46,664 nucleotides of DNA from positions 1 through 46,664 of the forward strand of contig JAFYIE010000085.1 in NCBI GenBank assembly GCA_017538795.1, read 5' to 3'. Origin of the DNA: Bacteroidales bacterium (GTDB lineage: Bacteria; Bacteroidota; Bacteroidia; Bacteroidales; F082). The notes under the pieces were generated by a model. The model saw only the letters and a program-made list of their open reading frames with translations, had not been told where the DNA came from and made no database searches. Position 1 is the first letter of the stretch; every line of letters starts with the position of its first letter. Below are positions 4,726 through 38,335 of the stretch, piece after piece. Position numbers and translations under genes: made by a program.

Positions 4726-5366
4726 AGTTCCTTATGCTTTATAATGATTGTTTCAAAACGGTTTAAGAATCGCACTAACAGCGATTCCTTTGCAGATGTC
4801 AGCATCTTACTGACATTCTGCTGTGATTTCTCAATGCTATTTGCTATAACGGCTTGTGATAGTTCTTGGGCAACAGAAAGATAGATTACCTTCGCCTGAT
4901 TGACACTCCAGCCAGTAATGAGGTCATCAGCAAATGCAAGACCTGCATCCAATTCCTCATTCACATCATGCCAACAGGTACTGACTGCAAGCCTGTTCTT
5001 TTCCATCGCATCAAGTCCTCTTCCCGATAACTTGAATGCCTCACCGTCAGATGTTACAATACTGTCACCCTGATAGTCTGTCGTTCCTATTCCTATTGAT
5101 ATTCGTGCATCCCACACTTCCTTCGCGTCTGTCGGGGAATACGATTTCAACCCTGCCCGTATCATTGACGCAATTTTCAATGATGCTTCAGGACATTCTA
5201 CGACAATCTGAAAGCTGTCCCCACGAAACATCTCCATCTTCATAGGGCTTATCTTCTGTAGGTCTTCAACAATATCGCGCAAGACTTTAATCAACAAGTC
5301 TCGCTTGTCTAAAGCAATCTGCTCCGAACGGACTATATCGCCTGTAATTATTGCCTTAATCTCCAT
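4722..5366 (-). CDS. SatD family protein
   Basis: This 214-aa protein, counting from MEIKAIITGDIVRSEQ, matches the SatD family. The GDIVRS motif is at residues 9-14 and a GDSFQI motif follows near residue 60. The C-terminal 70 residues (LDAGLAFADDLITGWSVNQAKVIYLS and beyond) look like a helix-turn-helix region. SatD was named from a Streptococcus secretion and acid-tolerance locus, and its activity is not settled. I chose the ATG at 5366 over the upstream one because a TAATTTTG -7 box at 5397-5404 would leave the longer start outside the transcript. It is first in a two-gene operon with the DUF3307 protein. Confidence 0.75.
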   Translation of the reverse strand: MEIKAIITGDIVRSEQIALDKRDLLIKVLRDIVEDLQKISPMKMEMFRGDSFQIVVECPEASLKIASMIRAGLKSYSPTDAKEVWDARISIGIGTTDYQGDSIVTSDGEAFKLSGRGLDAMEKNRLAVSTCWHDVNEELDAGLAFADDLITGWSVNQAKVIYLSVAQELSQAVIANSIEKSQQNVSKMLTSAKESLLVRFLNRFETIIIKHKEL

Positions 5367-21088: not shown

Positions 21089-23089
21089 ATGCAACAAGAA
21101 GATGATTTGAGGGCATTGGCGAAAGTCATGGATTTTCTCCGTGCCGTGAGTATTATTCTCGTAGTAATGAACGTCTATTGGTACTGCTATGCCAGTATCG
21201 TGGAATGGCACCTGAATATCGGTGTGGTTGACCGCATTATGATGAATTTCAACCGTACCGCAGGACTGTTTCATTCCACGCTCTATACCAAACTGTTCTC
21301 CGTTCTTCTCCTTGCCCTGTCGTGCATGGGTACAAAAGGCGTGAAGGAGGAAAAGATTACTTGGAAGCACATTGGCATAGCACTGGCTATAGGTTTCATC
21401 CTGTTTTTCCTCAACTGGTGGATTCTCAATTTGCCATTACCCTTTGAGTTCTGCACAGTCCTGTATGTCCTGACGCTGACCCTCGGCTATATCGGTCTGC
21501 TGATGGGTGGTCTGTGGATGAGCCGTCTGCTTCAGAACAACCTCATGGATGATGTTTTTAACAACGAGAACGAATCATTTATGCAGGAAACCCATCTGAT
21601 GGAGAACGAGTATTCCGTCAATCTGCCGACACGTTTCTACTACAAAAAGAAGTGGCACAAGGGCTGGATTAACGTGGTCAATCCCTTCCGTGCCACTATT
21701 GTACTTGGTACTCCTGGTAGTGGTAAGTCATACGCCGTAGTAAACAACTTCATCAAACAGTCCATTGAAAAAGGTTTCTCGATGTACATCTACGATTATA
21801 AGTTCAGTGACCTCAGTACCATTGCCTATAACCACATGCTGACACACAAAAGCGGTTACAAGGTACTTCCCAAGTTCTACGTCATCAACTTCGACGATCC
21901 TCGACGCAGCCACCGATGCAATCCCATTCATCCAGACTTTATGACAGACATTTCCGATGCCTACGAATCTGCCTATACCATCATGCTTAACCTAAACCGC
22001 ACATGGGTACAAAAGCAAGGTGACTTCTTCGTAGAATCACCTATCATTCTGTTTGCCGCCATCATTTGGTTTCTCAAACTATATCAAGGAGGCAAATACT
22101 GCACTTTCCCTCATGCCGTAGAGTTTCTGAACCAAAAATACGAGGACATTTTTCCGATACTCTCATCATATCCAGAACTTGAAAACTACATGTCACCCTT
22201 TATTGATGCATGGCAAGGTGGTGCTGCTGATCAGCTTCAGGGTCAGATAGCAAGTGCCAAAATTCCGCTGTCCCGTATGATTTCCCCACAACTATATTGG
22301 GTCATGTCCGCTAGTGAGTTCACGCTCGACATCAATAACCCAAATGAGCCAAAGATTCTTTGTGTCGGTAACAATCCAGACCGTCAGAACATTTATGGTG
22401 CAGCCCTCGGTCTGTATAACAGCCGTATTGTAAAACTCATCAACAAGAAAGGAATGCTCAAATCGTCCGTTATCATTGATGAGTTGCCAACCATTTACTT
22501 CAAAGGACTGGATAACCTGATTGCCACAGCCCGAAGCAACAAGGTTGCTGTCTGTCTCGGTTTCCAGGATTTCAGCCAGTTGGTGCGTGACTATGGTGAT
22601 AAGGAAGCAAAAGTAGTACAGAATACTGTGGGCAATGTCTTTTCTGGGCAAGTGGTAGGTGAGACTGCCAAGACATTGAGCGAGCGTTTCGGTAAGGTAC
22701 TTCAAAAGCGACAGTCCATGTCCATCAATCGCCAAGATGTATCTACCTCCATCAATACACAGATGGACAGTTTGATTCCACCCAGCAAAATCTCCACGTT
22801 GACACAGGGCATGTTTGTCGGTGCTGTCTCTGACAACTTCGACGAGCGTATCGAACAGAAAATCTTCCATGCTGAAATTGTAGTGGATAATGCCAAGGTA
22901 GCCAAAGAAACCAAAGCATACAGGCCTATCCCTATTATTACTGACTTCATAGATGAGAACGGAAATGATAATATGGAACAGATGGTCAAAGAAAACTATA
23001 TCCAGATAAAAATGGATGTTAAAGATATTGTGGTTAATGAATTAAAACGTATCGCTGAGGACTCTGATTTAGCACATATAAAGAAATAA
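21089..23089 (+). CDS. mobC: Coupling protein MobC (VirD4/TraG-like)
   Basis: This 666-aa protein is a type IV coupling ATPase. It has four hydrophobic segments in the first 150 residues, Walker A (GTPGSGKSYAVVNNF) at about residue 206, and a Walker B region (VIIDELPTIYF) near residue 465. It ends with a VirD4-like motif LIATARSNKVAVCLGFQDFS. It docks the relaxase-DNA complex onto the Tra channel. The gene is 40 bases after mobB and is the last of the conjugation module. A hairpin follows it immediately. Confidence 0.9.
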   Translation: MQQEDDLRALAKVMDFLRAVSIILVVMNVYWYCYASIVEWHLNIGVVDRIMMNFNRTAGLFHSTLYTKLFSVLLLALSCMGTKGVKEEKITWKHIGIALAIGFILFFLNWWILNLPLPFEFCTVLYVLTLTLGYIGLLMGGLWMSRLLQNNLMDDVFNNENESFMQETHLMENEYSVNLPTRFYYKKKWHKGWINVVNPFRATIVLGTPGSGKSYAVVNNFIKQSIEKGFSMYIYDYKFSDLSTIAYNHMLTHKSGYKVLPKFYVINFDDPRRSHRCNPIHPDFMTDISDAYESAYTIMLNLNRTWVQKQGDFFVESPIILFAAIIWFLKLYQGGKYCTFPHAVEFLNQKYEDIFPILSSYPELENYMSPFIDAWQGGAADQLQGQIASAKIPLSRMISPQLYWVMSASEFTLDINNPNEPKILCVGNNPDRQNIYGAALGLYNSRIVKLINKKGMLKSSVIIDELPTIYFKGLDNLIATARSNKVAVCLGFQDFSQLVRDYGDKEAKVVQNTVGNVFSGQVVGETAKTLSERFGKVLQKRQSMSINRQDVSTSINTQMDSLIPPSKISTLTQGMFVGAVSDNFDERIEQKIFHAEIVVDNAKVAKETKAYRPIPIITDFIDENGNDNMEQMVKENYIQIKMDVKDIVVNELKRIAEDSDLAHIKK

Positions 23090-23281: not shown

Positions 23282-25447
23282 TTAATTACACAAAGTCCCT
23301 TTTGTTTGTTCGTTCCACAACATTGAATAAACCCCTTTTTTGACGAGTAGTTCGTTATGTGTACCTGATTCTACAACCTTTCCATGATCAATGGTTATTA
23401 TAGTATCAGCATCCATCACTGTACTCAATCTGTGGGCAATTATAACAATTGTTTTACCTTCAGATGCTAATTGCTTTGTTACTTGCTTAACATATTTCTC
23501 CGCAAGACTATCAAGCGAAGAAGTTGCTTCATCGAAAAGTATAATCTCTGGATTACAATAAACAGCCCGTGCTATTGCTAATCTTTGCCGTTCTCCGCCC
23601 GACAGCGATGTGCCATGTTCGCCGATACGTGTATTAAGCCCCTGTGGTAGTTCATCTATGAAATTGTCCAATCCAAGATTCTTAATCACATCTACGATGC
23701 GTTTCATGTCTGGGTTACTTTCTCCGAGAGCGATATTCTCGGTTACGGTGCCTGCAAACAGTTCTACCTGCTGCGGAACGATACTGACTTTCTCACGTAA
23801 AGACCTTTTGTTGATCGTAGATATGTCATAGTCACCAATCTTTATCTTACCCTTTTGTATCGGATAGATGTTTTGCAAAAGTGAAATGAGTGTGGTTTTA
23901 CCAGATCCGCTTTCACCAACGATGCCTGTCGTCTTGCCCCTCTGTATCGTTAAATTAAGATTTTCAAACACGAATTTGCGAGAACCATAACGAAATGTAA
24001 CATCGTCGAAATGAATGTCGCCTAGCATATCATTGGTGAGAGAAATCTTATTGGTGTCGATTTCTTCACGTTCTAAATCCATAATCTGGAATAAGCGGTC
24101 TGAGGCTATCATAGCCTCCTGTATGGTAGAATTAGATGAAATAATGGTAGATATAGGCGATGTTACATAACCGACAAGGCTATAGAACATCATTAATGTT
24201 CCTGGTGTGATACTTTGGTCTATAACCTGCGAACTGCCTATCCATAGTATTGCAATAACTACAGCCTGTTCCACCAGCTCTATGCCATTACTTACATACA
24301 ATCCTCCTTTAGTGGCTGTGAATATACTTCGAAGCATTCCCACGAAATGACGCTCAGTCTTTACGTTCATAAAATACTCTATACCGAAGCGCTTTACCGT
24401 AGCTATAGACTCCAGCGATTCTACGAGCTGAGCTTGCAAGTCTGCACCGCGTTCCATTATCTTTCTTTGGTATTTGCGATTAAGGCGATTGAATGTAAAA
24501 AACAGCAATCCATAAAATGGAACCGCTGCTATCAGTATTAGCGTGAGCTTCCATGAGTAGATTAGCATCAATGCCACTGTAAAAAGCAATATCATGATGT
24601 TCACAGTGAAATCCACCACGACATTGTTAATAAAGTTCCTTATCTTCACTGCATCACCAAGACGTGACATTATTTCACCGACACGCATGGTGTCAAAAAA
24701 AAGTTGGGGCAGAGTAAGCAAATGTTTATAATAGCCAAGTATGAGTGTCACGTCAATACACTGCCCCGTCTTTACCGTAATTAGGTTTTTCATCAGGCCG
24801 ATAAATACTTTTAATAACAGAATGGCAATCATGACAATGCTCATCATATTCAATAGGTTTACATTGCCGTCAACAAGCACGTAATCCGTTATTTTGCTGA
24901 CATAGATTGAAGTTGAAAGGCCAAGAATGCTCACTATTATAGCACCGAATAATGATTGAATTAGTGCTCCACGATGAGGACGGAATAGTAGCCAGAAACG
25001 TTTTATATTGCTTGTAGTCTTGTCGCCAGTTTCAAATGTATCATTTGGTTCTGCAAAGACAAGTATACCAGTCCAAATTTTCTTGAAATCATCATGCTTC
25101 ATCTCATGCATTCTTCCGTCACCAGGATCCATGTATTCAAGTGAAGTGTTACTAACCTTGTATATAACCACGAAATGATGCAGCCCATCCTTGACGACAA
25201 CATGAGCAATTGTTGGTTTAGGAACAATCTTAAGAGCAGCAAATTCCGCCTTCACTCCTTTTGCACTAAACCCTAACTTCCGGAGTGCATCAATCATACC
25301 AAGAATATTGGTACCTTTCTTATCAGTATAGGCATATTGCCGTATCTTAGCTATCGGGTATTTTAATCCATAGAATGCGCAGACCGAAGCTATACATGCT
25401 GCCCCACAGTCAGTGATGTCGTGTTGTTTTATACGTATTGCACTCAT
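23282..25447 (-). CDS. C39-peptidase ABC exporter (bacteriocin-type)
   Basis: This 721-aa protein is a peptidase-containing ABC transporter. Domains in order are a C39 peptidase (residues 1-140) with catalytic Cys13 in DITDCGAACIA, His in GLHHFVVIYK near residue 92 and Asp in YMDPGDG, then a transmembrane domain (about 160-460), then the ATPase. The ATPase has Walker A GESGSGKTTL, signature LSGGERQRLAIARA and Walker B IILFDEATSSLD. It should cut a peptide after a Gly-Gly leader and export it. A matching 60-aa precursor lies 2.4 kb upstream. It overlaps the HlyD-type gene by 1 base. All catalytic residues are present. Confidence 0.93.
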   Translation of the reverse strand: MSAIRIKQHDITDCGAACIASVCAFYGLKYPIAKIRQYAYTDKKGTNILGMIDALRKLGFSAKGVKAEFAALKIVPKPTIAHVVVKDGLHHFVVIYKVSNTSLEYMDPGDGRMHEMKHDDFKKIWTGILVFAEPNDTFETGDKTTSNIKRFWLLFRPHRGALIQSLFGAIIVSILGLSTSIYVSKITDYVLVDGNVNLLNMMSIVMIAILLLKVFIGLMKNLITVKTGQCIDVTLILGYYKHLLTLPQLFFDTMRVGEIMSRLGDAVKIRNFINNVVVDFTVNIMILLFTVALMLIYSWKLTLILIAAVPFYGLLFFTFNRLNRKYQRKIMERGADLQAQLVESLESIATVKRFGIEYFMNVKTERHFVGMLRSIFTATKGGLYVSNGIELVEQAVVIAILWIGSSQVIDQSITPGTLMMFYSLVGYVTSPISTIISSNSTIQEAMIASDRLFQIMDLEREEIDTNKISLTNDMLGDIHFDDVTFRYGSRKFVFENLNLTIQRGKTTGIVGESGSGKTTLISLLQNIYPIQKGKIKIGDYDISTINKRSLREKVSIVPQQVELFAGTVTENIALGESNPDMKRIVDVIKNLGLDNFIDELPQGLNTRIGEHGTSLSGGERQRLAIARAVYCNPEIILFDEATSSLDSLAEKYVKQVTKQLASEGKTIVIIAHRLSTVMDADTIITIDHGKVVESGTHNELLVKKGVYSMLWNEQTKGTLCN

Positions 25448-26607
25448 TATATATTGTATTGTGTGGGGCTAACCCATTCGTCAATATTTTTATATATTAA
25501 AGTAAACAAAGACTGACGTGTTACCATAAAATGTGCTGTAGCACTCATTCCTTTCTTAATTTGGGCTCGCTTGTCAGTATGTTTCAACAAAAGATAGTCT
25601 CTGTCCATAGTGCATTTCACCTTATAATAGTATGTGTCGTTTATTGCAACTAAGTCTGATGCTATATCCGTGACGTGTCCCGTCATTATACCCCATTCGT
25701 TGTAATTCAGTGCATCTATCTGTACTTTTACTTCCATATCTTTTTTAATGAAAGCGATGTCTCTAGGGCTGACATGACACTCAAGACAAAGTTTCCCGTT
25801 TGGGCTGACAATGGCGATTTGCTGACCTGCGGCGAGAAATCCTCCCTTGTATATTCCGTTGAATTGTTCCAACGTACCATCAATGGGACTCTTTACAACA
25901 TACAATTGTTTGTCTGCCAAGAGACTGCTGTCCGTTGCTAAGGTTTCTTTCAATTGCATGCGATAGTCATAGAGATAGTTCGCCCATGAACTCTCCTGAT
26001 TTTCTTTCAAGACATTCAATTCATTTAGTTTTCCTTGATACCTATAGTAAACCTCGTTATATTCACTTTCACTAATAAGACCCTTGTCAAATAGTAGTTT
26101 GTATTTTCTCCATTCAATTTCATATTGCTCGCGGTCGGTGTCTATTTTGCGGACTTGTGATCGATAATGCGTGTAAATCTCTTTTATATCCACGGAGTGG
26201 AAACAAGTTGGTACATTACCCTTTGATAGTGTCTCTAGGTCATGTATCTTATCAGACAATTCCCTCAACTTATCAGAATAGAATCTGTGCTGACTGTCAT
26301 CCTTCTGTGTTCGTTGGGTTAGGATAACATCTCCTTTATGTAAAATTGCACCTTCTGTGACGTAGACGGAATCTACATATTCTGACATGGCTGTCATTAT
26401 CGGGGTTTTCTCATAAACAGGTCTTACCATAGACGAGGCACTGACGGTTATATCGATGTAAATAAATGGCAAAGAGGCAATAGCTAAGAAAAACACAAAA
26501 ACTACCACTTTGTAAATAATTTTTGTCTTTATGCGGTGTTCATAAAGATAAAAATCTGCAGAATTCGAAGTAAGGTGATTTTCTAATAATGAGTCCATCT
26601 CTAACAT
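25447..26607 (-). CDS. HlyD-family periplasmic adaptor
   Basis: This 386-aa protein is a membrane-fusion adaptor. It has one N-terminal membrane helix (IIYKVVVFVFFLAIASLPFI), two split biotinyl-lipoyl halves (AILHKGDVILTQR and VVKSPIDGTLEQF), and between them an alpha-helical hairpin rich in K, E and R. It links the ABC exporter to an outer-membrane channel. No TolC gene is found in this window, so the host chromosome must supply one. It is translationally coupled to the exporter. A TACTTTTG -7-like box at 26625-26632 fits a promoter. The start at 26607 is the most upstream ATG, and 26598 is also possible. Confidence 0.9.
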   Translation of the reverse strand: MLEMDSLLENHLTSNSADFYLYEHRIKTKIIYKVVVFVFFLAIASLPFIYIDITVSASSMVRPVYEKTPIMTAMSEYVDSVYVTEGAILHKGDVILTQRTQKDDSQHRFYSDKLRELSDKIHDLETLSKGNVPTCFHSVDIKEIYTHYRSQVRKIDTDREQYEIEWRKYKLLFDKGLISESEYNEVYYRYQGKLNELNVLKENQESSWANYLYDYRMQLKETLATDSSLLADKQLYVVKSPIDGTLEQFNGIYKGGFLAAGQQIAIVSPNGKLCLECHVSPRDIAFIKKDMEVKVQIDALNYNEWGIMTGHVTDIASDLVAINDTYYYKVKCTMDRDYLLLKHTDKRAQIKKGMSATAHFMVTRQSLFTLIYKNIDEWVSPTQYNI

Positions 26608-26624
26608 TTATTGAAATTAAAACG

Positions 26625-26667
26625 CAAAAGTATCTCACTGTCAGGTTGGTCAGGATTATATTTGTCG
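26625..26667 (-). promoter_or_regulatory. Promoter of the adaptor-exporter operon with conserved element (copy 1)
   Basis: On the minus strand TACTTTTG (26625-26632) matches the -7 box, but no TTTG lies at -33. Instead a conserved element occupies 26641-26667 (on the + strand it reads TCAGGTTGGTCAGG then ATTATATTTGTCG). Related copies lie at 28084-28112 and 28311-28337. This suggests activator-dependent expression. The activator is unknown; the nearby TPR/LuxR-type protein is a candidate. Confidence 0.5.
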
Positions 26668-26733
26668 TTTCATGTATCAATTCGATATTATTCTTCCAAT
26701 TGGTAACATATTTCTTCCCCTTGAAGTTGTTCG

Positions 26734-27741
26734 CTATTCTTCTCGAACCAACTGTTCCCCTATTCTTTCAGTTAGAGGAAACAATACTGAATATTTCTCA
26801 TAATCTTCCTGCAGCAACTCTGACGAAGATGATTTCTTAGTGTCTGTATATTCATATTCGACAACATAGAACACATCTTCCACATCAATGTTCCTCACAA
26901 TATCTTCTTTTTTATGCGTCAACATCAGATGCCGGTATCTGTTAGAAGACTTCAGATTGAAAACGGAAGGGGTATCAGAATCACTATATCGATATAATTC
27001 CGTCTTATTGTGTTTAGACAATACTTGTGTGTACCCGAAGAGATTTATCACAAGAGAGTTTTGGGGCCACAAGGCATCTGCGGACAGAAGCATTTCGCTC
27101 TTGTCACGAAAAAACTCGCAACTGCCTATCGCGATAGAATCCGCATAAACAATACCCGATTCAATATTCCTTTTATTATCACGCATGATTTCCTCATATA
27201 AAGTGCTCTTGTCGAGAAACGGTAAAGCCATGTATCTGTCGTCAATCATCATGCTTCGTTTCTTCTGTGCAATGTCTTTTCTCTTTGACATAAAGTAATT
27301 TGTTACGTCATTACCGCAATGCACTTTTTTGCTTTTGGTGTCGATATAGAATTCACGTATGCCATCCATATAATACTTCAGGCATGAATCTACATGTTCT
27401 ATACTCCTAAAGTACACTTTACAATGATAGTACTTCTTTTTCTTTACCGTAACACTGACTTCTGATATTTTATAAGACGATGGAGACAGGAAAATGATGC
27501 TGTCCTCATTATAAACGAGACTCTTGGGCTCATAGCTTATATGAGAAATATGATATTTGAGACCTTTCTGAAGATTGGTACATCCTCCCATGTCAGAGCG
27601 TCCTACTACTGTTCCGTTAGCATCGTAGATAGTAGCATAACTAATTGGATTTCCAGTTATGCTGTCTGCCAGCATAACTTGCTGGGCTAATCCCACTAAT
27701 CTAGTAATGAAAAGCAGTTGAGCTAAAATAAAATATTTCAT
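26734..27741 (-). CDS. Exported protein with CarboxypepD_reg-like domain
   Basis: This 335-aa protein, counting from MKYFILAQLLFITRLVGLAQ, has a signal peptide followed by a CarboxypepD_reg-like beta domain (residues 20-95, with SITGNPISYATIYDANGTVV and SYKISEVSV). The remaining 240 residues match no family I know. Such proteins recur in Bacteroidetes peptide-export loci. Roles in surface assembly or self-protection are speculation. It lies between the adaptor gene and the precursor gene. Longer starts at 27759 and 27792 are possible. Confidence 0.7.
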   Translation of the reverse strand: MKYFILAQLLFITRLVGLAQQVMLADSITGNPISYATIYDANGTVVGRSDMGGCTNLQKGLKYHISHISYEPKSLVYNEDSIIFLSPSSYKISEVSVTVKKKKYYHCKVYFRSIEHVDSCLKYYMDGIREFYIDTKSKKVHCGNDVTNYFMSKRKDIAQKKRSMMIDDRYMALPFLDKSTLYEEIMRDNKRNIESGIVYADSIAIGSCEFFRDKSEMLLSADALWPQNSLVINLFGYTQVLSKHNKTELYRYSDSDTPSVFNLKSSNRYRHLMLTHKKEDIVRNIDVEDVFYVVEYEYTDTKKSSSSELLQEDYEKYSVLFPLTERIGEQLVREE

Positions 27742-27845
27742 ACTTCTATTTAGATTCATAGAGTAATCACAATTAACGGATATGATAAGCAATATCCGTC
27801 AATTGTGATACTAGATTGATGTGATATGACTTAACGTCTGGGGCT

Positions 27846-28028
27846 TCATGCATTTTTACCATGGTATACTCTGATACCAAAGATATATATTTCTGTATTT
27901 CCCTTTATCCCATCACTAAGACCTTTAACACTTACTATTTTTACAGTGCCTCCTCCATAGACGTTTTGCGCTTCATTAGCAGAAAGCTCACTACATAAAC
28001 TCTTTGAGTCAATTTTTTTAATATTCAT
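27846..28028 (-). CDS. Double-glycine leader precursor peptide
   Basis: This 60-aa peptide is a likely substrate of the C39 exporter. The leader (residues 1-26) ends in a hydrophobic and acidic stretch and a double glycine (LSANEAQNVYGG, Gly25-Gly26). The core from residue 27 has 34 residues, net charge about +3, many glycine and beta-branched residues, and no cysteine. The leader type is that of Bacteroidales GG natural-product precursors. The core does not carry the YGNGV motif of pediocin-like bacteriocins. No modifying enzyme is seen nearby, so it is probably exported unmodified. Function could be killing or signalling. Confidence 0.8.
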   Translation of the reverse strand: MNIKKIDSKSLCSELSANEAQNVYGGGTVKIVSVKGLSDGIKGNTEIYIFGIRVYHGKNA

Positions 28029-28083
28029 TTTTCTAATTTTTTTTGTTGTCCTACTCTTAAGATTTTCGGTTCTCTCCTGTTAA

Positions 28084-28112
28084 CCAGTTTGGTCTGGATT
28101 ATATATTTGTCG
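28084..28112 (-). promoter_or_regulatory. Conserved element upstream of the precursor gene (copy 2)
   Basis: The + strand reads CCAGTTTGGTCTGG (an inverted repeat, CCAG/CTGG) and then ATTATATATTTGTCG. It lies about 56 to 84 bases upstream of the precursor start. It matches the element before the adaptor gene in the same orientation. The 344 bases from 28029 to 28372 hold no other gene; the rest is AT-rich sequence with a third copy at 28311. Confidence 0.55.
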
Positions 28113-28310
28113 ACTCATATATATCAAATTGTATTTTCTCAACTTTATTTTTTTATTTTGCATATAGGCAGTGCCTTTTAGTTAATAAACTGTAATTATT
28201 CGCAACTATTCATAACTATAATTGCTATATTACCTATTATTTATTTTCATTTTACTATCTTTTATTATAATACTCTATCATTAAGGCAATGAGGCATCTA
28301 CCCATTATAA

Positions 28311-28337
28311 CTGTCTGGCCTGGATATTATCGTGTCG
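28311..28337 (-). promoter_or_regulatory. Conserved element, diverged copy 3
   Basis: The + strand reads CTGTCTGGCCTGGATATTAT then CGTGTCG, which aligns with the copies at 26641 and 28084 in the same orientation. No complete gene lies between it and the precursor on the minus strand, so it may be a second regulatory site or the remnant of a lost precursor gene's promoter. Confidence 0.4.
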
Positions 28338-28372
28338 ACTTGATTATACATTATAAAATTCATTATCTAGTT

Positions 28373-28780
28373 CTATCTAATTAGAATTTTTTCGAATGTT
28401 CCAACGTAAGTGTCTCCATAACCTGTTGTAATCACAATCACAAATTCACCATTTCCGTATTCAGAAAGGTCATAGGAGATAACATCTCCATAATTCATAT
28501 GAGGATTATCATAGATTATTTCATTGCCATTACGATATATGGCAATACTTCCGTAACCAAGATCTTCTTGAAAAGAAATGTGCAGAAATTCAGAATCAGA
28601 ATAGAAGATTGCATTAATAGCATACGCATTTTGAGAAGGTGAGCGCCAAATATCAGTTGGAAGATAAATGGGGCCATTTGCTTCGGACACTTCAAAATAG
28701 TGGATTCTACTATATGTAGCTGAACTTGCATTAATTGCAAAACATACAATAATTAGAATAACGAAAATAACCTTTTTCAT
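28373..28780 (-). CDS. Small secreted DUF3244-like protein
   Basis: This 135-aa protein, counting from MKKVIFVILIIVCFAINASS, has a signal peptide and one compact beta-rich domain ending GEFVIVITTGYGDTYVGTFE. This resembles DUF3244-type secreted domains of Bacteroidales. The ATG at 28780 agrees with a well-matched promoter just upstream; the longer frame from 28855 would lie outside the transcript. Its position between the precursor and the regulator suggests it belongs to the peptide locus. Function unknown. Confidence 0.65.
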   Translation of the reverse strand: MKKVIFVILIIVCFAINASSATYSRIHYFEVSEANGPIYLPTDIWRSPSQNAYAINAIFYSDSEFLHISFQEDLGYGSIAIYRNGNEIIYDNPHMNYGDVISYDLSEYGNGEFVIVITTGYGDTYVGTFEKILIR

Positions 28781-28800
28781 ACCTTTGAACTTTTTGGCTG

Positions 28801-28832
28801 CAAAGATATGATAAAATTTCCGTCGCAGCAAA
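28801..28832 (-). promoter_or_regulatory. Consensus Bacteroidetes promoter of the DUF3244-like gene
   Basis: On the minus strand TTTG at 28829-28832 is followed after 20 bases by TATCTTTG at 28801-28808, a full match to TTTG / TAnnTTTG. The expected transcript start is a few bases before the ATG at 28780. Confidence 0.8.
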
Positions 28833-28934
28833 TCGCTTTGGTCTATTTGTTGCACCTTAGAAATCTGTACCCATTGTAAATCAGTGGATTACGGGAACGT
28901 ATCCATGTTTTTACGATTATATTTGCAACAAAAA

Positions 28935-30602
28935 TTATAATCGTGCTTTCTTCTTTATTCTGGATCTGGTAGAACGTACGGTCGTATCTGAAACACCTAA
29001 AACATCTGCAATATCATAATCGTCATAACCCAAATCTTCGAGGATCAAAAATACATATTGGCGAACACTTAGAGGTGTATATCGCTCTAACCAGCCTGAA
29101 AATACCTTATTATTTATGATTTTATAAAAGTCAACCAATGAGTTTAAATCCTCGTCAGAATAATGAACTATAGGCTTTCTGTTCTTTATTGTCTCATAGA
29201 TAGTATTCCCTTTTTGCAGTTCTGACATAATAGATTTATAGAGTGTTGATATATTGTCTTTCAGTTCATCAATCTCCTTTTGCTTTGACCTGTCTGATGT
29301 CTTTAATAACTTTATTTTCTCTATGTTTTTGCTGATTTCTTCCTCATAATTAGATACTTTACTCACATACAATCCTATTTCATGTTGATACATATTTACC
29401 TTCTCGGTAAAATTCTCTATTTCTGATTTGTAGGTATCATTATTGTTGGTAAGTGTTTCTATTGTACTATTATATGATCTCACCCTCTTTTGGTGATAAC
29501 GGAAAGAAACAAAAAGAGCTGCACTGGCTAAAAACGCAATAACAAGAGCATATAATATTTTCTGATATAATTCCGACTCGGATTTCGCTCTATCATATTT
29601 TAACTGAAGCTCTTGTACTGTTTTAGAACTTTTATTTATAGTATCATTAAGACTGTCCAATTTTAATGAAATGATATATGCATCATCATAATTTCCAACC
29701 TCTGCATAATAATTCGCAATTATTTTATATAGATCTTTTTTTATCTTTACGTCATTTGTCGACAAAGCATGATCCCAATATTCTTTTGCTTTTAATCGGT
29801 CACCTCTTTGATATTCTATTTTACCAAGTAACATTTTTGCATGGGAATTGGGGTGAATAGAGTCAGATTGTAATGCGTTATTCTCAGATAAATCCATATC
29901 ACCTTTTTCATAATACATTTCACCTATATCTACTAATATGTCTGCTTTTAATATTGAATTGACATCATCAATATAGCGTAGTCCAGATTTTAAATAAAAA
30001 TAGGCACTATCCGATAAGTTTACTGCTGAATATGAAGATGCAACCATTACAAACGCTCGACTTATTAACGCCCTATCTTTAAGTTCAAATGAGCTCTCCA
30101 AGAATTTTTTAGAATATTCCAAAGTTAAGGCTTTGTTATCTGTAATATAGTTCAGATATATAAGTCTTTCATAGATTTTATTAGTTATCCAAGAATAACC
30201 AAATTCAATAGACAGGCCTTCCGCTTTCTTCAAATAATGAGCACTCACTTCTAATTGTTTTTTTGCATAACACATCATTCCTTTATAATAATATGAATCT
30301 GCTAAATGATAAGAATCATTATTATTTTCAAAAAACTGAATACTATAGTCTATTAAAGAATCGTTATCTGGGACTTTTTGTTTTTTTATGTTGGCAGATG
30401 TATATAATAAACCATATAGCGCTTTTAAATGATTATCTTTCAAAGCCTCATAGTCTATTTCTCGAAGAATAGATAATGTGCTGTCAGGATTATCGTTGAT
30501 AATATCTTCTGCTGTCTTTAGGGAAGAACAAATTTCATTCTGTGAGCAGGATACTATAAACAAAGATATAGGTAAAAACCATATAAGTCGAGATATCTTC
30601 AT
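28935..30602 (-). CDS. Membrane-anchored TPR regulator with LuxR-type HTH
   Basis: This 555-aa protein has a lipoprotein-like signal (LFIVSCSQN) and a series of tetratricopeptide repeats (about residues 25-320). A single membrane helix follows (ILYALVIAFLASAALFVSFR, about 345-365). Then come a long coiled coil (about 370-460) and a C-terminal helix-turn-helix (DDYDIADVLGVSDTTVRSTR). This layout is common in Bacteroidetes: periplasmic TPRs sense a ligand and the cytoplasmic HTH binds DNA. It is a candidate regulator of the adjacent peptide-export genes. I use the ATG at 30602, not 30626, because the promoter -7 box at 30634-30641 makes 30626 almost leaderless. Confidence 0.8.
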   Translation of the reverse strand: MKISRLIWFLPISLFIVSCSQNEICSSLKTAEDIINDNPDSTLSILREIDYEALKDNHLKALYGLLYTSANIKKQKVPDNDSLIDYSIQFFENNNDSYHLADSYYYKGMMCYAKKQLEVSAHYLKKAEGLSIEFGYSWITNKIYERLIYLNYITDNKALTLEYSKKFLESSFELKDRALISRAFVMVASSYSAVNLSDSAYFYLKSGLRYIDDVNSILKADILVDIGEMYYEKGDMDLSENNALQSDSIHPNSHAKMLLGKIEYQRGDRLKAKEYWDHALSTNDVKIKKDLYKIIANYYAEVGNYDDAYIISLKLDSLNDTINKSSKTVQELQLKYDRAKSESELYQKILYALVIAFLASAALFVSFRYHQKRVRSYNSTIETLTNNNDTYKSEIENFTEKVNMYQHEIGLYVSKVSNYEEEISKNIEKIKLLKTSDRSKQKEIDELKDNISTLYKSIMSELQKGNTIYETIKNRKPIVHYSDEDLNSLVDFYKIINNKVFSGWLERYTPLSVRQYVFLILEDLGYDDYDIADVLGVSDTTVRSTRSRIKKKARL

Positions 30603-30633
30603 CGCTATATTATTATTTGTTTGCATTTAACGA

Positions 30634-31540: not shown

Positions 31541-32683
31541 TTAGTGGTCCTTTTTAACAGTCAATAACACTACTCCATAAGAAAATCTTCCGCTTTCAGG
31601 CACTAATAGTAATATTTTCTCTCCATCTACTAAAGATTTTGTTCTAACCAACTCATCCAATGCAGCAAAGATAGAAACAGATCCCACGTTGCCAACACTG
31701 GTCAGGTTTGTAAACCACCTGGATTCGTCGAGTGAAATATTCCGACGTTGAATTTCTTCGTCCAATTTGTGATAGAAGAACATTGACGATATGTGAGGTA
31801 TTACATAATTTATGGAGTTAGGATTTATATCGTGTTTTTGAAAAGCATACTCTATTGCATCAACAAATAGCCTGATAGCATGTTCATTGAGGATTTTTAC
31901 ATTTTGCTTGACACACCAAATGGATTTTTTTGCACGTTGTTCTTCGTTAAAATGTTTCCAGCCAATCAAAACACCTTGTTCATCAAGATCTCCTCCCATA
32001 TACATACAAGTTGGTTTGTTATTGGCATATGATATGGTTTCAATCCAGTCAATACGAAGATTTATATCGTTGTGAGGTTTATTTTCCAACAAGCAACATG
32101 CAGCTCCATCTGATAACATGAATCTTAGGAAATCCTTTTCAAAAGCGATAAGGGGATTCTTCTCAATTTTTGCCTTTGCATTATACTCTTCTTCAAATTG
32201 TCTTGAGAAAAGTATCGGAGATATTAGTTCTGACGTAGAACATATCGCATTTTGAGAATTGTCAGACAAGATTGACATGTATGCAGTCTTAAGTGATGCA
32301 ATACTTGTCATACACACTCCAGAGAAAGAGAAAATCTCCAGAGGATGGTCAAACGCCTCTCCATGTACCATTGACGCATGGGAAGGTAGGAACTGGTCTG
32401 GAGATGCTGTTCCGCAGGATAATACCTGAATCATAGAGAGTTCTTCTGATGACAGCATCTTTTTAATGGCTAATGCTGCCATTTGGGCATTTGTATGGGT
32501 TATGTTCTGTTTCTTGTCAAGAGCATAATACCTGTATTTAATGCCATTTTGTCTGAGGATAATGCTCCTCACTCTTGAAGGTTTACCACCAATCAAGCCC
32601 AAATAATTTTCCATTTCCTCATTTCCAACTGGATTGTTCGGGAAATAGGATGATGTTCTCGTAATAAAAACTTCTTTTGCCAT
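31541..32683 (-). CDS. DarB-like beta-ketoacyl-ACP synthase III
   Basis: This 380-aa protein is a KASIII-fold ketosynthase. The complete catalytic triad is present: Cys124 in FSGVCMTS, His297 in YVIPHISS and Asn332 in SVGNVGSVS. The N-terminus (VFITRTSSYFPNNPVGNEEM, then YLGLIGGKPSRVRS) resembles the DarB/flexirubin-type branch, which joins beta-ketoacyl chains into alkyl- or dialkylresorcinols. The partner aromatase and acyl carrier genes normally needed were not found in this window. The substrate cannot be read from sequence. It is a single gene between two TetR genes, with its own promoter. Confidence 0.8.
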   Translation of the reverse strand: MAKEVFITRTSSYFPNNPVGNEEMENYLGLIGGKPSRVRSIILRQNGIKYRYYALDKKQNITHTNAQMAALAIKKMLSSEELSMIQVLSCGTASPDQFLPSHASMVHGEAFDHPLEIFSFSGVCMTSIASLKTAYMSILSDNSQNAICSTSELISPILFSRQFEEEYNAKAKIEKNPLIAFEKDFLRFMLSDGAACCLLENKPHNDINLRIDWIETISYANNKPTCMYMGGDLDEQGVLIGWKHFNEEQRAKKSIWCVKQNVKILNEHAIRLFVDAIEYAFQKHDINPNSINYVIPHISSMFFYHKLDEEIQRRNISLDESRWFTNLTSVGNVGSVSIFAALDELVRTKSLVDGEKILLLVPESGRFSYGVVLLTVKKDH

Positions 32684-33680: not shown

Positions 33681-33733
33681 CCAAAGAAATTCTATTTATG
33701 ATGCTGTATCTATTCACCAATAATAATACAATT

Positions 33734-35848
33734 ATGAAAAAATGTCGTTTATTCCTTCAGAATCAAGTATGCCACTGTATTATGGCAATACTTATGCCTC
33801 TGGCTATGTCTGGTTGTTATGGCAATGTGGATGGTATTACAACATCCAACTCGTCCTCTCTTGGATTATCAACGGATATAAACTATTCGGTTTCTACATT
33901 ATCTCCGCTGGATGATGTAATGATGCAGGCTTTTTATTGGAATGTCCCTGTGGATGAGACAAACCTCAATGGAACATGGTGGGATAATCTTAGTGGGAAA
34001 GCCTCTGAATTGAAGTCAAGTGGAATATCTGCCATATGGACTCCAGGCCCCGCAAAAGGAAACTGGGGAATCCTGGATAATGGCTACGGTATATATGACC
34101 ACTATGATTTAGGCAATTATTATCAGAAAGGAAGTACAGAAACCAGATTTGGTAGCCGTTCTGAATTAGAGACGATGATCCAGACGATGCATCAGAGTCC
34201 AAGAATAAATGTGTATTCCGATGTAGTTCTAAATCATGTTTATTCAAGTGATGATAATGAAGAGGTTAATCCTGCAGTAAAAGCCTATGTTTTTAATGAA
34301 GCTAATTCTGAACAATTCATGCCATATCCTGCCAATGAAATAAGGTGGGTCGTCCCAAATGCCTTAGCAGGAGACTATTATATACAAATAAAAGGCTATT
34401 GTCTGCCTTGGTCTTCTCCATCGACAGAAAGAGGATATGATGTTATGATAAAATGGGATAACAGCATAATTGTAAATGATACTATTGTTTGGGAATATGA
34501 ACCGAACGATGGGGGAGGTAATTACAATCTATTTCCTGCATCAGGAAAAACGGTGCGCGGACATATAGATAGCCAGTCTGATATAGACGAATATAAAATA
34601 ACATTGGCAACACCCCATGATATAGAGATTCGACTTACAGCAAAAAAAGAATATGGAACACCAATGCAATGGGTAGATGCAGGAAGTATGTTAGGATATT
34701 ATCCTGTCGCTATATGGTACAATTCCTCAAATCTTGCAAGTTCACAACTGCAAGCCAGGACTAACACCTATATCACATATCCTACTCACACGGGGACAGG
34801 CGAGCCTAATTACAGCTGGACATATAGTCATTTCCACCCTGTTGATGTTAATGACTGGTTAGGGGGATATGGAACTGACGAAATCGTAACAAATACAAAA
34901 TTCTTCGGAAACGACTTCAATACTTTTGAAACATCAGTACAGACACGTTTAGGAGATTGGGGGAAATGGCTTGTTAACACTATTGGATTTGATGGTTTTA
35001 GATTGGATTTCGTACGTGGATTCCAAGAACAATTTGTAGCAGACTGGGTTAATGGTCTTCCCTTGGTAAATGGTGTACAGCCTTTTATTGTCGGAGAATA
35101 CTGGGGAGCTGATTATCGAATTAAGAATTGGGTCAATACAATTGCTTCTTTGGGTGCTGATGTTGACGGTTTTGACTTTCCGTTGAAGAATACATTAACA
35201 GACATGTGCAATAGTTCTGGGTCAGATTTTAACATGTCATGGCTGAATCATGCTGGCTTAGTTCGCAATAATGCAGGTAATTCTCTGCCTGGAACCTCTG
35301 TTGTAACATTCCTGGACAATCACGATACTGGCAAGGAGCATGACAAATGGGTAACAAAAGACTTCCATCTTGGATATGCATATCTGTTAACGCACGAAGG
35401 GAGACCGTGTATTTTCTATCCACATTTCTTTGGTGATACTATGGTAGATGCCAATGACAATACGCAAACAGTAACTCCACCATCATGGCTGAAAAACAGT
35501 CTTAAGGATCTTATCTCCATCAGAAAGACATATCTTGGGGGATCTCTCGTGGTTTTGAGTGAAATAGGAAATCCATATCCGTCAGGAGATGTCCAGGATG
35601 TCTATATTGCAAGAAGGCAGGGAAACGGGACAAAAGATGGTGCAATAATCGTGCTTAACAATAATGACACAAATACAAAAACCTTATGGGTTACGGTTAA
35701 TGCAACGGGATTTTCAGACTGGTCCGGACTAACTCTTGTAAACGTCCTGAATACTACAGAAACAGTAACTGTTCAATCGGACGGACGAGTAGAATTAGGT
35801 GCTCCGGCTAGAAGTTATAGCATTTGGGTTAAGCAGTCAGATCTGTAA
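33734..35848 (+). CDS. GH13 alpha-amylase lipoprotein with inserted PPC-like domain
   Basis: This 704-aa protein, counting from MKKCRLFLQNQVCHC, is a lipoprotein (lipobox MSGC, Cys near residue 28) of the alpha-amylase family GH13. The catalytic residues are all visible: Asp in GFDGFRLDF (about residue 425), Glu in VGEYWG (about 455) and Asp in FLDNHDTG (about 531). An extra block of about 130 residues replaces the short domain-B segment of its paralogue. It has an EPND motif and VRGHIDSQSDIDEYKITL, typical of pre-peptidase C-terminal domains. It probably hydrolyses starch at the cell surface. It is AT-rich compared with the second amylase downstream. The longer start at 33698 is less likely. 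Confidence 0.9.
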   Translation: MKKCRLFLQNQVCHCIMAILMPLAMSGCYGNVDGITTSNSSSLGLSTDINYSVSTLSPLDDVMMQAFYWNVPVDETNLNGTWWDNLSGKASELKSSGISAIWTPGPAKGNWGILDNGYGIYDHYDLGNYYQKGSTETRFGSRSELETMIQTMHQSPRINVYSDVVLNHVYSSDDNEEVNPAVKAYVFNEANSEQFMPYPANEIRWVVPNALAGDYYIQIKGYCLPWSSPSTERGYDVMIKWDNSIIVNDTIVWEYEPNDGGGNYNLFPASGKTVRGHIDSQSDIDEYKITLATPHDIEIRLTAKKEYGTPMQWVDAGSMLGYYPVAIWYNSSNLASSQLQARTNTYITYPTHTGTGEPNYSWTYSHFHPVDVNDWLGGYGTDEIVTNTKFFGNDFNTFETSVQTRLGDWGKWLVNTIGFDGFRLDFVRGFQEQFVADWVNGLPLVNGVQPFIVGEYWGADYRIKNWVNTIASLGADVDGFDFPLKNTLTDMCNSSGSDFNMSWLNHAGLVRNNAGNSLPGTSVVTFLDNHDTGKEHDKWVTKDFHLGYAYLLTHEGRPCIFYPHFFGDTMVDANDNTQTVTPPSWLKNSLKDLISIRKTYLGGSLVVLSEIGNPYPSGDVQDVYIARRQGNGTKDGAIIVLNNNDTNTKTLWVTVNATGFSDWSGLTLVNVLNTTETVTVQSDGRVELGAPARSYSIWVKQSDL

Positions 35849-35926: not shown

Positions 35927-36718
35927 ATGATGCATAACAAACTTATCTTGAAACAAGATATGCTTGATGCATTCAAGAAACTTGGAATGCAACAGGAAAT
36001 GACGGTGATGGTTCATTCTTCGCTGAGCAGTCTGGGCTATGTATGCGGAGGGGCACAGACCATTATCCGGGCTTTACTCGAAATCGTCACACGCGAAGGT
36101 ACTATCGTGATGGCTACCGAGTCTTGGAAGAACCTCGACCCCGATGCAGGCGTTCACAACGAAGTAGGTACTGACGACTGGCAGGCTATCCGCGACAACT
36201 GGCCACCATTCGACAAACGCCTCACGCCGACTGACAGCATGGGCACAGTTGCCGAAATGTTTCGTCTCTGGATTTGGACTTATCGCAGTGACCATCCAGC
36301 CCGTTCCATTGCTGCCAACGGCAAACATGCGACCTTCCTGACCGTGAAGCACGACCTTTCGGATATTTACGGCGACACATCACCCATGGGACGGCTCTAC
36401 GAACTCGATGCCTACATCCTGCTGATTGGCGTAGGCTACGACAAAGTGACTTCACTCCATCTGGCCGAGGCCCGTGCCAATTATCCAGGTAAACATAACA
36501 CGATTGCCCATAGTGCCGATTTCGAATGCGGCAAGCGGGTCTGGAAAGCATACGAGACGCTTGATGTCGATAGCAGGGACTTCAAGCAGATAGGCAAGGC
36601 TTTCGAGCAAACCCATCATGTGGCAAAGGTACGGCTTGGTCATGCCACCCTGCGACTGATACGCCAACGGGAACTGGTGGACTTTGCCGTGGAATGGATG
36701 GAAAAGAATCGTAAATGA
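35927..36718 (+). CDS. AAC(3)-family aminoglycoside N-acetyltransferase-like protein
   Basis: This 263-aa protein matches the AAC(3) antibiotic acetyltransferase family. The visible signatures are MVHSSLSSLGYVCGGAQTII (residues 27-46), RSDHPARSIAANG (about 125) and a C-terminal LIGVGYDKVTSLHLAE (about 167). These enzymes move an acetyl group from acetyl-CoA to the 3-amino group of aminoglycosides, but many relatives have unknown substrates, so resistance should not be assumed. The gene has higher G+C than its left neighbour and lies 18 bases before the second amylase, probably as one transcript. Confidence 0.85.
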   Translation: MMHNKLILKQDMLDAFKKLGMQQEMTVMVHSSLSSLGYVCGGAQTIIRALLEIVTREGTIVMATESWKNLDPDAGVHNEVGTDDWQAIRDNWPPFDKRLTPTDSMGTVAEMFRLWIWTYRSDHPARSIAANGKHATFLTVKHDLSDIYGDTSPMGRLYELDAYILLIGVGYDKVTSLHLAEARANYPGKHNTIAHSADFECGKRVWKAYETLDVDSRDFKQIGKAFEQTHHVAKVRLGHATLRLIRQRELVDFAVEWMEKNRK

Positions 36719-36736: not shown

Positions 36737-38335
36737 ATGAAGAATCTGAGATTTTGGAAAGACGTTAATGTAGTGGTTGCCGCTTGCTTTCTCGCCGCTT
36801 GCTCTACGCAAAGGGAGGAGCCGTTGCAGCCGTTGGACGACGTGATGATGCAGGCGTTCTATTGGGATGTGCCTGTGGATGACCAGGCCAGGAACGGCAC
36901 ATGGTGGGATCACCTTTCTTCGTTGGCGCCGGAACTCAGGGCCGCTGGCATCAGCAGCCTGTGGACGCCCATTCCCGCAAAGGGAAACTGGGGCATCTAT
37001 GACAGTGGCTATGGCATCTACGACCATTATGACCTCGGCAATTATGAGCAGAAGGGCACGGTGGAAACGCGCTACGGCAGCCGTGCGGAACTGGAGCAGA
37101 TGATTGGCACGATGCACCAAGCGGGTATCAAGGTCTATTCAGACGTGGTGCTGAATCATCTCTATGGTGGGGATGAGAACTTCGATGCCAATCCCGCTGT
37201 CACGGCGTATGTCAGGGCGGGACTTCATGAGCCGTACCCTGAGAGCGACATCCAATGGAAGAACGACACGGCTTATACGCGGACACATCTTTTCTTCCCG
37301 AAGCATACGGGTAAGGGCGAACCAAACTACGAATGGCACTATCAGCACTTCCATCCGTCGTCGGCATCGGACTCGCTGACTGACTTCGCCGACGATGTGC
37401 TGCGGCCACGCACCAAGTTCTTCGGCAACGACCTCGACACGTATAACGAGGAAGTGCAGCAGCGGCTCTGCGATTGGGGCAAATGGCTGAAGGGCACGAT
37501 TGGCTTTGATGGCTTCCGTCTGGACTTCGTGCGGGGCTTGCTGCCTGAGTTTGTCAACCGATGGGTAAATGGATTGCCGTTGCAGGACGGCCAGCAGCCG
37601 TTTATCGTCGGTGAGTATTGGGCCGAAGACGGACGGTATATCAAGGAATGGGTGGATAGCGTTGCTCAGGGCGGTGCCGATGTTCATGCCTTCGACTTCC
37701 CTCTGAAGTTCACGCTCACCGAGATGTGTAATAAGTCGGGTGATGAGTTTGACATGTCGCGCCTGGCTCATGCGGGGATGATACGGGGCTTCGGCCTGCC
37801 CGTTGATAATGTAGTGACCTTCGTGGATAACCACGACACGGGCAAGGAGCATGACAAATGGCTCGTCAAGGATTACGTACTGGCCTACGCCTATATCCTC
37901 ACCCACGAGGGTACGCCCTGTGTGTTCTATCCGCATTTCTATGCCGTCACCCAGCACGACGTGGATAATCCGTCATTAGAAGTCACGGCATCTACAGACT
38001 TGCAGTTGGATATTCGTCATTTGATTGACATCCGCCGCCAGTATCTCGGAGGCACGTTGGCAGTCTTAACAGAATCAGACAAACATTTATACGTTGCCCG
38101 CCGTCAGGGAAACGGCCATAGGGACGGTGCCATCATCGTACTCAACAACCACGACACCGACACCCTCAGCATCACCCTCAATGTATGTCCCGACGGCTTC
38201 ACTGACTGGTCAGGCCAGACGCTGGTTAATCTCCTTAATCCCAAAGAGACTATCACTGTCGGCAATGACGGCCAAGCCACGCTGTCAGCCCCCAATCGTT
38301 ATTTTTCTATATGGTCGCCTCAAAGTAATCTATAA
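36737..38335 (+). CDS. GH13 alpha-amylase lipoprotein
   Basis: This 532-aa lipoprotein (lipobox LAAC, Cys near residue 22) is a GH13 alpha-amylase. Catalytic residues are Asp in GFDGFRLDF (about residue 263), Glu in VGEYWAEDG (about 292) and Asp in FVDNHDTG (about 366). It is highly similar to the first amylase over the whole catalytic domain but lacks the PPC-like insertion. The C-terminal beta domain ([18 protein letters not shown]) is kept. The gene is clearly more G+C-rich than the first, so the two copies have had different histories. A terminator follows. Confidence 0.9.

Follow-up and report, generated by a model that had tools for sequence, protein, structure and literature searches.

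The 46,664-nt contig JAFYIE010000085.1 of the Bacteroidales bacterium assembly GCA_017538795.1 (the whole contig is referred to here as the window) carries a real mobile peptide-export cassette, in which a 60-residue double-glycine precursor with a core of a new family is paired with a new kind of exported partner, a 335-residue protein which we refer to as CpD. The surrounding locus lies on the minus strand and is transcribed in the order: a tetratricopeptide repeat (TPR) protein with a helix-turn-helix (HTH) domain, a DUF3244 protein, the precursor, CpD, an HlyD-type adaptor and an ATP-binding cassette (ABC) exporter with a C39 peptidase domain. We give an even chance to the reading that precursor and CpD constitute a new class-II-like bacteriocin and its exported protector, an activity which we infer from sequence comparison. 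As an exported protein found next to one conserved core in three genera and also on its own, CpD would be a testable immunity candidate for Bacteroidales peptides.

The precursor core is conserved in three genera

The precursor gene (27846–28028, minus strand), identified by open-reading frame (ORF), alignment and codon analysis, encodes a 26-residue leader ending in Gly25-Gly26 and a 34-residue core (residues 27–60) without cysteine. It was the only one of 375 small ORFs in the window to match a double-glycine-leader pattern, for which the rate in shuffled sequences (12.45 in 11,763) predicts ~0.4 such ORFs in the window; we accept the precursor as real because two other genera retain its core and the nucleotide changes fall mostly at third codon positions, and not because of the rarity of the leader pattern.

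Related exporter loci were collected by a genome scan with an HlyD alignment, which gave 109 confirmed relatives; the best 80 of the 109 plus three plasmid loci made up a set of 83 exporter loci that were compared with the window proteins by tblastn. Only 59 of the 83 are at least 15 kb long, and neighbours missing in the rest may lie off the contig; two had no exporter match (E ≤ 1e-8) and 24 had a TolC match. The precursor was matched in two of these loci, one from Hoylesella timonensis (L040, 51% over 59 aa) and one on a plasmid-like contig of Bacteroides sp. An322 (L041, 56% over 50 aa). The initial annotation of the window had proposed the precursor and its Gly25-Gly26 leader, and had named a lack of homologues near C39 exporters as one result that would speak against it; both homologues lie near C39/HlyD genes, and the precursor stands.

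In the three-locus alignment the leaders have diverged, ending in NVYGG in the window and in NGG and VGG in the two relatives, and the cores share the common end DGIKGNTE[IV][FY]IFGIRV[FY]HGKN. The same residue occurs at 22 (window vs. L040), 21 and 29 of 31 core codons in the three pairwise comparisons, and nucleotide differences at codon positions 1/2/3 number 5/7/20 (window vs. L040), 6/6/17 and 3/2/21. This codon-position skew, together with the residue conservation, implies that the precursor is a protein-coding gene on which purifying selection acts strongly. The charge of the core is not conserved, at pH 7 it is +2.9 in the window and only +0.9 in both relatives; of the 34-residue, cysteine-free and cationic core described initially, the cationic character therefore holds for the window alone. 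The leader exhibits the consensus spacing of double-glycine leaders (Leu at −12, Glu at −8, Val at −4, Gly at −2 and −1), which agrees with a predicted C39 cleavage after Gly26, as had been suggested.

The precursor had no match in Pfam or PADLOC, only sub-threshold matches in NCBIfam and PDB matches no better than E = 0.36, and four core fragments had no occurrence in the literature searched, in keeping with the earlier remark that the core is unlike known bacteriocin motifs. The sub-threshold NCBIfam matches of precursors, to the plantaricin (0.027) and cerein (0.0037) families, fall largely within the leader and were discarded. As a query the precursor matched one of 173 genomes of its own family, the window itself, and four of 393 genomes of the order, which were the window and three weak matches (E 0.015–0.048) with no true relative among them: G266 (two places) has a stop inside the match, and in G316 and G371 the match lies inside much longer open frames. 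No match was found in viral contigs (single query, and also the three-row alignment), in genome contigs, or in plasmids (with the An322 precursor as query), and the two relatives surfaced only via the HlyD scan, not from direct precursor queries. A profile of the three sequences matched five of 399 genomes of the An322 family (E ≤ 0.001); the core was covered only in An322 and the match in the remaining four lay wholly or mostly in the leader part, which makes the core rare in the sample searched. Separately, a type IX secretion system (T9SS) sorting tail in H. timonensis (L114:1243–1731, DGLKGNTEIRVF) resembles the core segment DGIKGNTE[IV][FY]IF, perhaps by chance; the resemblance (to DGIKGNTEI) is one 13-residue best-hit match chosen post hoc and is not relied on, and T9SS models gave zero matches from the cores.

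Precursor, hairpin and CpD form a cassette

In all three loci CpD directly follows the precursor on the same strand, each time near HlyD/C39 genes, and besides the exporter genes it is the gene that accompanies the core in three of three. The window CpD ORF as read spans 26734–27792 (352 aa, minus strand), its homologues suggest a start at Met18, which gives a 335-residue protein at 26734–27741. Between precursor and CpD lies a strong hairpin (27766–27809, minus strand), with an energy of −30.3 kcal/mol over a 107-nt stretch in the window (z −5.6), −26.3 kcal/mol in L041 (z −6.7) and −23.3 kcal/mol in L040 (z −6.3), strengths that none of 200 shuffles reached at any of the three loci. The letters of the hairpins are unrelated between loci, and the layout of precursor, hairpin and CpD is the same in all three.

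The pair occupies a different position in each locus: before HlyD in the window, beyond a kinase/regulator pair in L040, and after the exporter stop codon in L041. On its two sides in L041, the pair is flanked by sequence with 97% and 95% identity to plasmid pBACSA02 (L008) and 94% to a B. uniformis plasmid (L009, in whose record HlyD and exporter are fragmented). The match ends at position 3538 of L041, in the exporter stop codon, and restarts within the TolC gene, at 5082 or 5086. The intervening 1,543 or 1,547 bp, which contain precursor and CpD, correspond to 195 and 199 bp in L008 and L009, where tblastn found no match to either gene. This replacement in an otherwise near-identical operon, and the differing positions, imply that the pair is a cassette which moves as a unit, and the with/without comparison points to a swapping of effector cassettes into one shared operon of exporter genes. 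Another conserved peptide of the double-glycine type, whose core begins VAPGP[ND]GE[ST]CTEH, was observed at L008:4444–4599, L009:2390–2551, L040:8998–9168 and L121:1747–1908.

CpD is a candidate immunity protein that also occurs alone

By eye, CpD possesses a signal peptide and no cysteine lipobox. Its N-terminal domain resembles the SusC N-terminal extension (NTE) and CarboxypepD_reg, its profile matching N-terminal regions of SusC weakly (E = 0.0025); CarboxypepD_reg was below cut-off in the CpDs of the two other loci, and nothing was above cut-off for the window CpD in Pfam, NCBIfam or PADLOC. Against the PDB, the CpD profile matched adiponectin best, ahead of SusC (6.5e-6 over the whole adiponectin chain, with no single stretch passing), a match which we took as chance.

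CpD had no match in plasmids or viral contigs. In the 399 genomes of the An322 family that were also scanned with the precursor profile, CpD-like matches occurred in 93, many of them being the N-terminal domain of much longer proteins, so that only the 13 genomes at E ≤ 1e-120, An322 among them, were used; in the 12 others the precursor profile found nothing (E ≤ 0.001). Twenty CpD flanks (4–19.5 kb) contained no match to the precursor or to a C39 peptidase domain, and the three ABC matches in them start at exporter residue 222 or later. The CpDs involved are close relatives of those in the cassettes: the window CpD is 76–82% identical to those of six of the 12 genomes (L131–L136) and to an interrupted copy, L137, and the L040 CpD is 97% identical to two others. 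CpD genes without a precursor would fit an immunity gene that is kept as a defence. Type VI systems of Bacteroidales are a described case of immunity genes that stand as orphans (PMC12247911, PMC10470768).

Export machinery and proposed mechanism

The exporter gene (23282–25447, minus strand) encodes a complete peptidase-containing ABC transporter (PCAT) of 721 aa (Pfam Peptidase_C39 2.9e-32, ABC_membrane, ABC_tran). Residues 5–720 match the solved bacteriocin exporter 4ry2 (2.8e-158), and Cys14, His91 and Asp107, which we take to be the catalytic residues of the C39 domain, fall in the aligned C39 motifs. Exporters in most related Bacteroidales loci are ~57–65% identical to it. The HlyD-type adaptor (386 aa, HlyD_3 5.8e-12) is encoded at 25447–26607 on the same strand, and peptide export by this pair, both members of which had been named in the initial annotation, is the natural reading of the locus. 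Pfam and NCBIfam scans of ten genes between 21089 and 33393 found no outer-membrane channel gene, as previously noted, the transfer-gene part and the rest of the genome not having been searched. The same ten genes include no peptide-modifying enzyme; the earlier statement that neither a modifying nor an immunity gene was obvious thus holds for its first half, whilst CpD, present in three of three loci, is a candidate for the second.

We propose that the locus makes and exports an unmodified, cysteine-free peptide that would function in the manner of class II bacteriocins or microcins. The 26-residue leader would be recognised by the C39 domain and cut after Gly25-Gly26, and the core would pass out through the ABC/HlyD pair and a TolC-type channel encoded elsewhere, probably to act on the envelope of related Bacteroidales. 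The hairpin would hold the level of CpD below that of the precursor, leaving the precursor in excess, and CpD would go to the periplasm or outer membrane, where it would protect the producer. The precursor–hairpin–CpD cassette would plug into different standing exporter operons, here beside a TPR/DUF3244 module on a conjugative element.

Several observations weigh against this bacteriocin reading. Just three loci carry the core, and the structure models of CpD and precursor are poor (predicted local distance difference test scores of 33 and 45) and unusable. CpD is 32–44% identical across the three loci, far below the core, which is unusual for a protein that would have to bind the core. Its gene also turns up in many kinds of chromosomal surroundings, perhaps a sign of a role independent of the peptide, and some CpD genes lie at contig ends (in G820, with 14 bp upstream), where a precursor could be missed. 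Relatives of CpD also occur without this core beside a radical-SAM-like gene (L054, by eye) and beside kinases (L157, L158 and L170, the last with double-glycine ORFs also in the flank); in L157 a 507-aa TPR protein directly precedes CpD, which points to some link between TPR proteins and CpD. Finally, the window leader NVYGG has a Tyr at −3, like a class of kinase-linked leaders described below, and this leader type favours a signalling role for the peptide, or else may be a swapped leader.

Regulation and the pheromone alternative

Double-glycine pheromones of the ComC/BlpC type work with a histidine kinase and response regulator (HK/RR). Among 104 related loci we found 33 kinase copies, 25 of which have a tiny, divergent double-glycine ORF ≤900 bp upstream; controls gave 2/33 on the same strand, 0/33 downstream, 216/3,000 at random and 0.8/33 with shuffled residues. 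Phe or Tyr precedes the double glycine (FGG/YGG) in 19 of 22 distinct kinase-linked leaders vs. 6 of 128 other leaders, the latter being de-duplicated regex hits (for 155 such hits, shuffled ORFs predict ~12), and the former excluding two duplicates (L070, L075) and L077, whose sole peptide is far off and ends in NGG; the leader pattern missed a similar ORF in L054 (6574–6702, seen by eye). The cores of the kinase-linked peptides differ widely (by eye). Their ORFs are candidates for a peptide-pheromone, kinase and regulator system in Bacteroidales, of which no description was found in those parts of the literature that were searched. Examples are L040:8791–8889, L121:2038–2154, L008:4201–4317, L009:2066–2215 and L170:9399–9512, with 20 further copies.

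The window has its own putative regulator, a protein with TPR, transmembrane (TM), coiled-coil and HTH parts encoded at 28935–30626 (or from 30602) on the minus strand, with sub-threshold TPR, Sigma70_r4 and GerE matches. A signal- or lipobox-like start (by eye) and a hydrophobic segment at residues 353–378 suggest that the membrane probably separates an outer TPR part from an inner HTH. Next to it is a secreted DUF3244 protein (28373–28780, minus strand; 135 aa from Met26; Pfam DUF3244 6.7e-6), the ORF as read being 28373–28855 with the likely start at 28780. Local alignment of upstream sequences detected an element before the precursor (28085–28122, minus strand) similar to one before HlyD (26642–26677, minus strand), with a score of 64 vs. 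50 for the best of 300 shuffles, in one of 21 comparisons, and in the own genome the pattern matches these two places only (up to three mismatches). Joint control of precursor and HlyD by a local regulator is likely from this similarity. The TPR/DUF3244 upstream alignment (3/300) and that among the precursor's own upstream parts (4/300) were near the edge of the shuffle test and were not used.

It is possible on these grounds, if rather improbable, that the peptide is an autoinducing pheromone which the TPR-TM-HTH protein senses outside the inner membrane, activating precursor and exporter via the shared element. Hydropathy places the two halves of the TPR protein suitably, the shared upstream element makes a local regulator plausible, the YGG leader is of the kinase-linked type, and L157 offers a second TPR protein before a CpD gene. 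Against a pheromone, the core is kept between genera, whereas the kinase-linked cores vary widely, the two relatives of the core have NGG and VGG leaders, no kinase is encoded by the ten genes scanned, and no TPR homologue was found at the other two core loci. Across the 83 exporter loci, neither TPR nor DUF3244 had a homologue at E ≤ 1e-8; L063 gave a single weak TPR match at E ≤ 1e-3. The TPR-HTH protein had matches in three plasmid-collection records (25–27% identity), and the DUF3244 protein had none in plasmids. TPR-TM-HTH followed by DUF3244 was found in Phocaeicola massiliensis (L177, 3917–6224) and Parabacteroides distasonis (L178, 3977–6196), the DUF3244 matches next to the TPR gene being 8.4e-31 in L178 and 1.3e-9 in L177; the annotation of L178 gives dxs, trkA and further ordinary genes close by. 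A further TPR-HTH gene in Phocaeicola massiliensis (L179:3929–6856) has in its vicinity a LanC-like gene and a double-glycine precursor rich in Cys and Gly. Exporter, HlyD, precursor and CpD had no match in these three 9-kb stretches.

TPR and DUF3244 thus appear to make up a module of their own that has come to lie next to the peptide module, and because the pair occurs elsewhere without the peptide, we have lowered the weight of the TPR protein as its sensor, the partnership put forward in the initial annotation. Conservation of the whole block, which that annotation had suggested checking, was found for precursor and CpD with the exporter in three loci, not for TPR/DUF3244. Its choice between a new bacteriocin and a signalling peptide survives with both candidates in place, the latter through leader type and upstream element rather than through the TPR link.

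Other possible roles for CpD

Bacteroidales toxins of the BSAP type provide a precedent for a resistant version of the target being brought along with the toxin, and CpD might likewise be a form of the target or receptor that resists the peptide, carried with the toxin and sparing the producer. We consider this unlikely. CpD looks exported, its domain is weakly SusC-NTE-like, and homologues 65–98% identical to a locus CpD occur in genomes where no peptide was found, all of which would suit a receptor. Its patchy spread is unlike that of an essential target, with the 13 of 399 genomes above (E ≤ 1e-120, one of them An322) and none of 31 other genomes among the relatives of the window (E ≤ 1e-20), and no second CpD copy was found in the own genome, which is 93.5% complete. 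CpD could instead assist in the export or maturation of the peptide, which would then be secreted for a structural or host-directed purpose and not as a weapon; we hold this to be very unlikely. Strict adjacency to the precursor and the exported nature of CpD speak for it. Against it, a dedicated helper should not be kept alone, and the 20 flanks gave no match to precursor or C39 peptidase domain.

Comparison with known peptide systems

As a putative class-II-like bacteriocin, the window peptide shares with the class II bacteriocins and microcins of the colicin V type a double-glycine leader with canonical spacing, a C39 ABC exporter and an HlyD adaptor, and no modifying enzyme among the genes scanned; exporter genes are also near both precursor relatives. 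The immunity protein of colicin V is a small inner-membrane protein, whilst the proposed protector here is a 335-aa exported protein with an SusC-NTE-like domain. CpD would take the place of an immunity gene beside the precursor, adjacent in three of three loci and also occurring without it, and we infer its protector role from this arrangement. The window core is similar to no family above cut-off, in which it differs again from the class II type. Colicin V also uses a TolC encoded elsewhere, according to the excerpts available of PMC10352776.

Bacteroidetocins are likewise Bacteroidetes peptides with a double-glycine leader that is cut and a C39-type ABC transporter. They have leaders of 15–16 aa, at least two cysteines, a neighbouring protein with five TM segments and mostly a thiol oxidoreductase, and the part of PMC6671954 available describes no obvious immunity protein. 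The window precursor differs in its 26-aa leader, the absence of Cys from its core, and the presence of HlyD and CpD, and no TM protein or thiol oxidoreductase gene of this kind was found among the ten window neighbours scanned. Bacteroidales clusters for ribosomally synthesised and post-translationally modified peptides (RiPPs) exhibit related exporter layouts and double-glycine precursors: in the portions of PMC10352776 available they encode PCATs, in part membrane-fusion and outer-membrane proteins, and TPR or HK/RR genes, with TPR genes in two of nine clusters, a radical SAM enzyme in eight of nine and LanM in the ninth, and no immunity protein with homology to known ones is reported there. 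Neither radical SAM nor LanM was found in the ten window genes, which sets the window apart from these clusters. Compared with ComC/BlpC-type pheromones, the window leader ends like the kinase-linked leaders of related loci (F/Y-GG), a trait derived in this analysis and not a published definition, whereas the ten genes scanned encode neither kinase nor response regulator and the core is conserved (21–29 of 31 residues) rather than hypervariable.

A further extension of the bacteriocin reading is tempting, though we would bet against it: this could be the first known Bacteroidales peptide weapon to have as its immunity protein an exported SusC-NTE-domain protein whose site of action lies beyond the inner membrane; CpD genes without the precursor would have spread as a ready defence, and the cassette would have gained a pheromone-type leader and a TPR-HTH sensor here, such that one peptide may both kill and self-induce.

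Genomic context and neighbouring genes

The locus sits on a Bacteroidales-type conjugative element. The gene directly before it encodes the MobC coupling protein of the element (21089–23089, plus strand; NCBIfam Bacteroid_MobC, 1117.9 bits), and GC content is ~0.54 in part of the transfer region vs. 0.31–0.36 around the precursor. The source genome (2.48 Mb, 122 contigs) has a contamination of 6.6% besides its completeness of 93.5%, so that the host of the contig is not certain. On the far side of the locus, the window encodes a DarB/StlD-type beta-ketosynthase (31541–32683; NCBIfam 1.2e-148, 495 bits, above cut-off) flanked by two TetR regulators, and an aminoglycoside 3-N-acetyltransferase family protein (35927–36718; Pfam Antibiotic_NAT 1.5e-78) flanked by two amylase-like genes (33698–35848 and 36737–38335), which are 59–67% identical to one another in two stretches.

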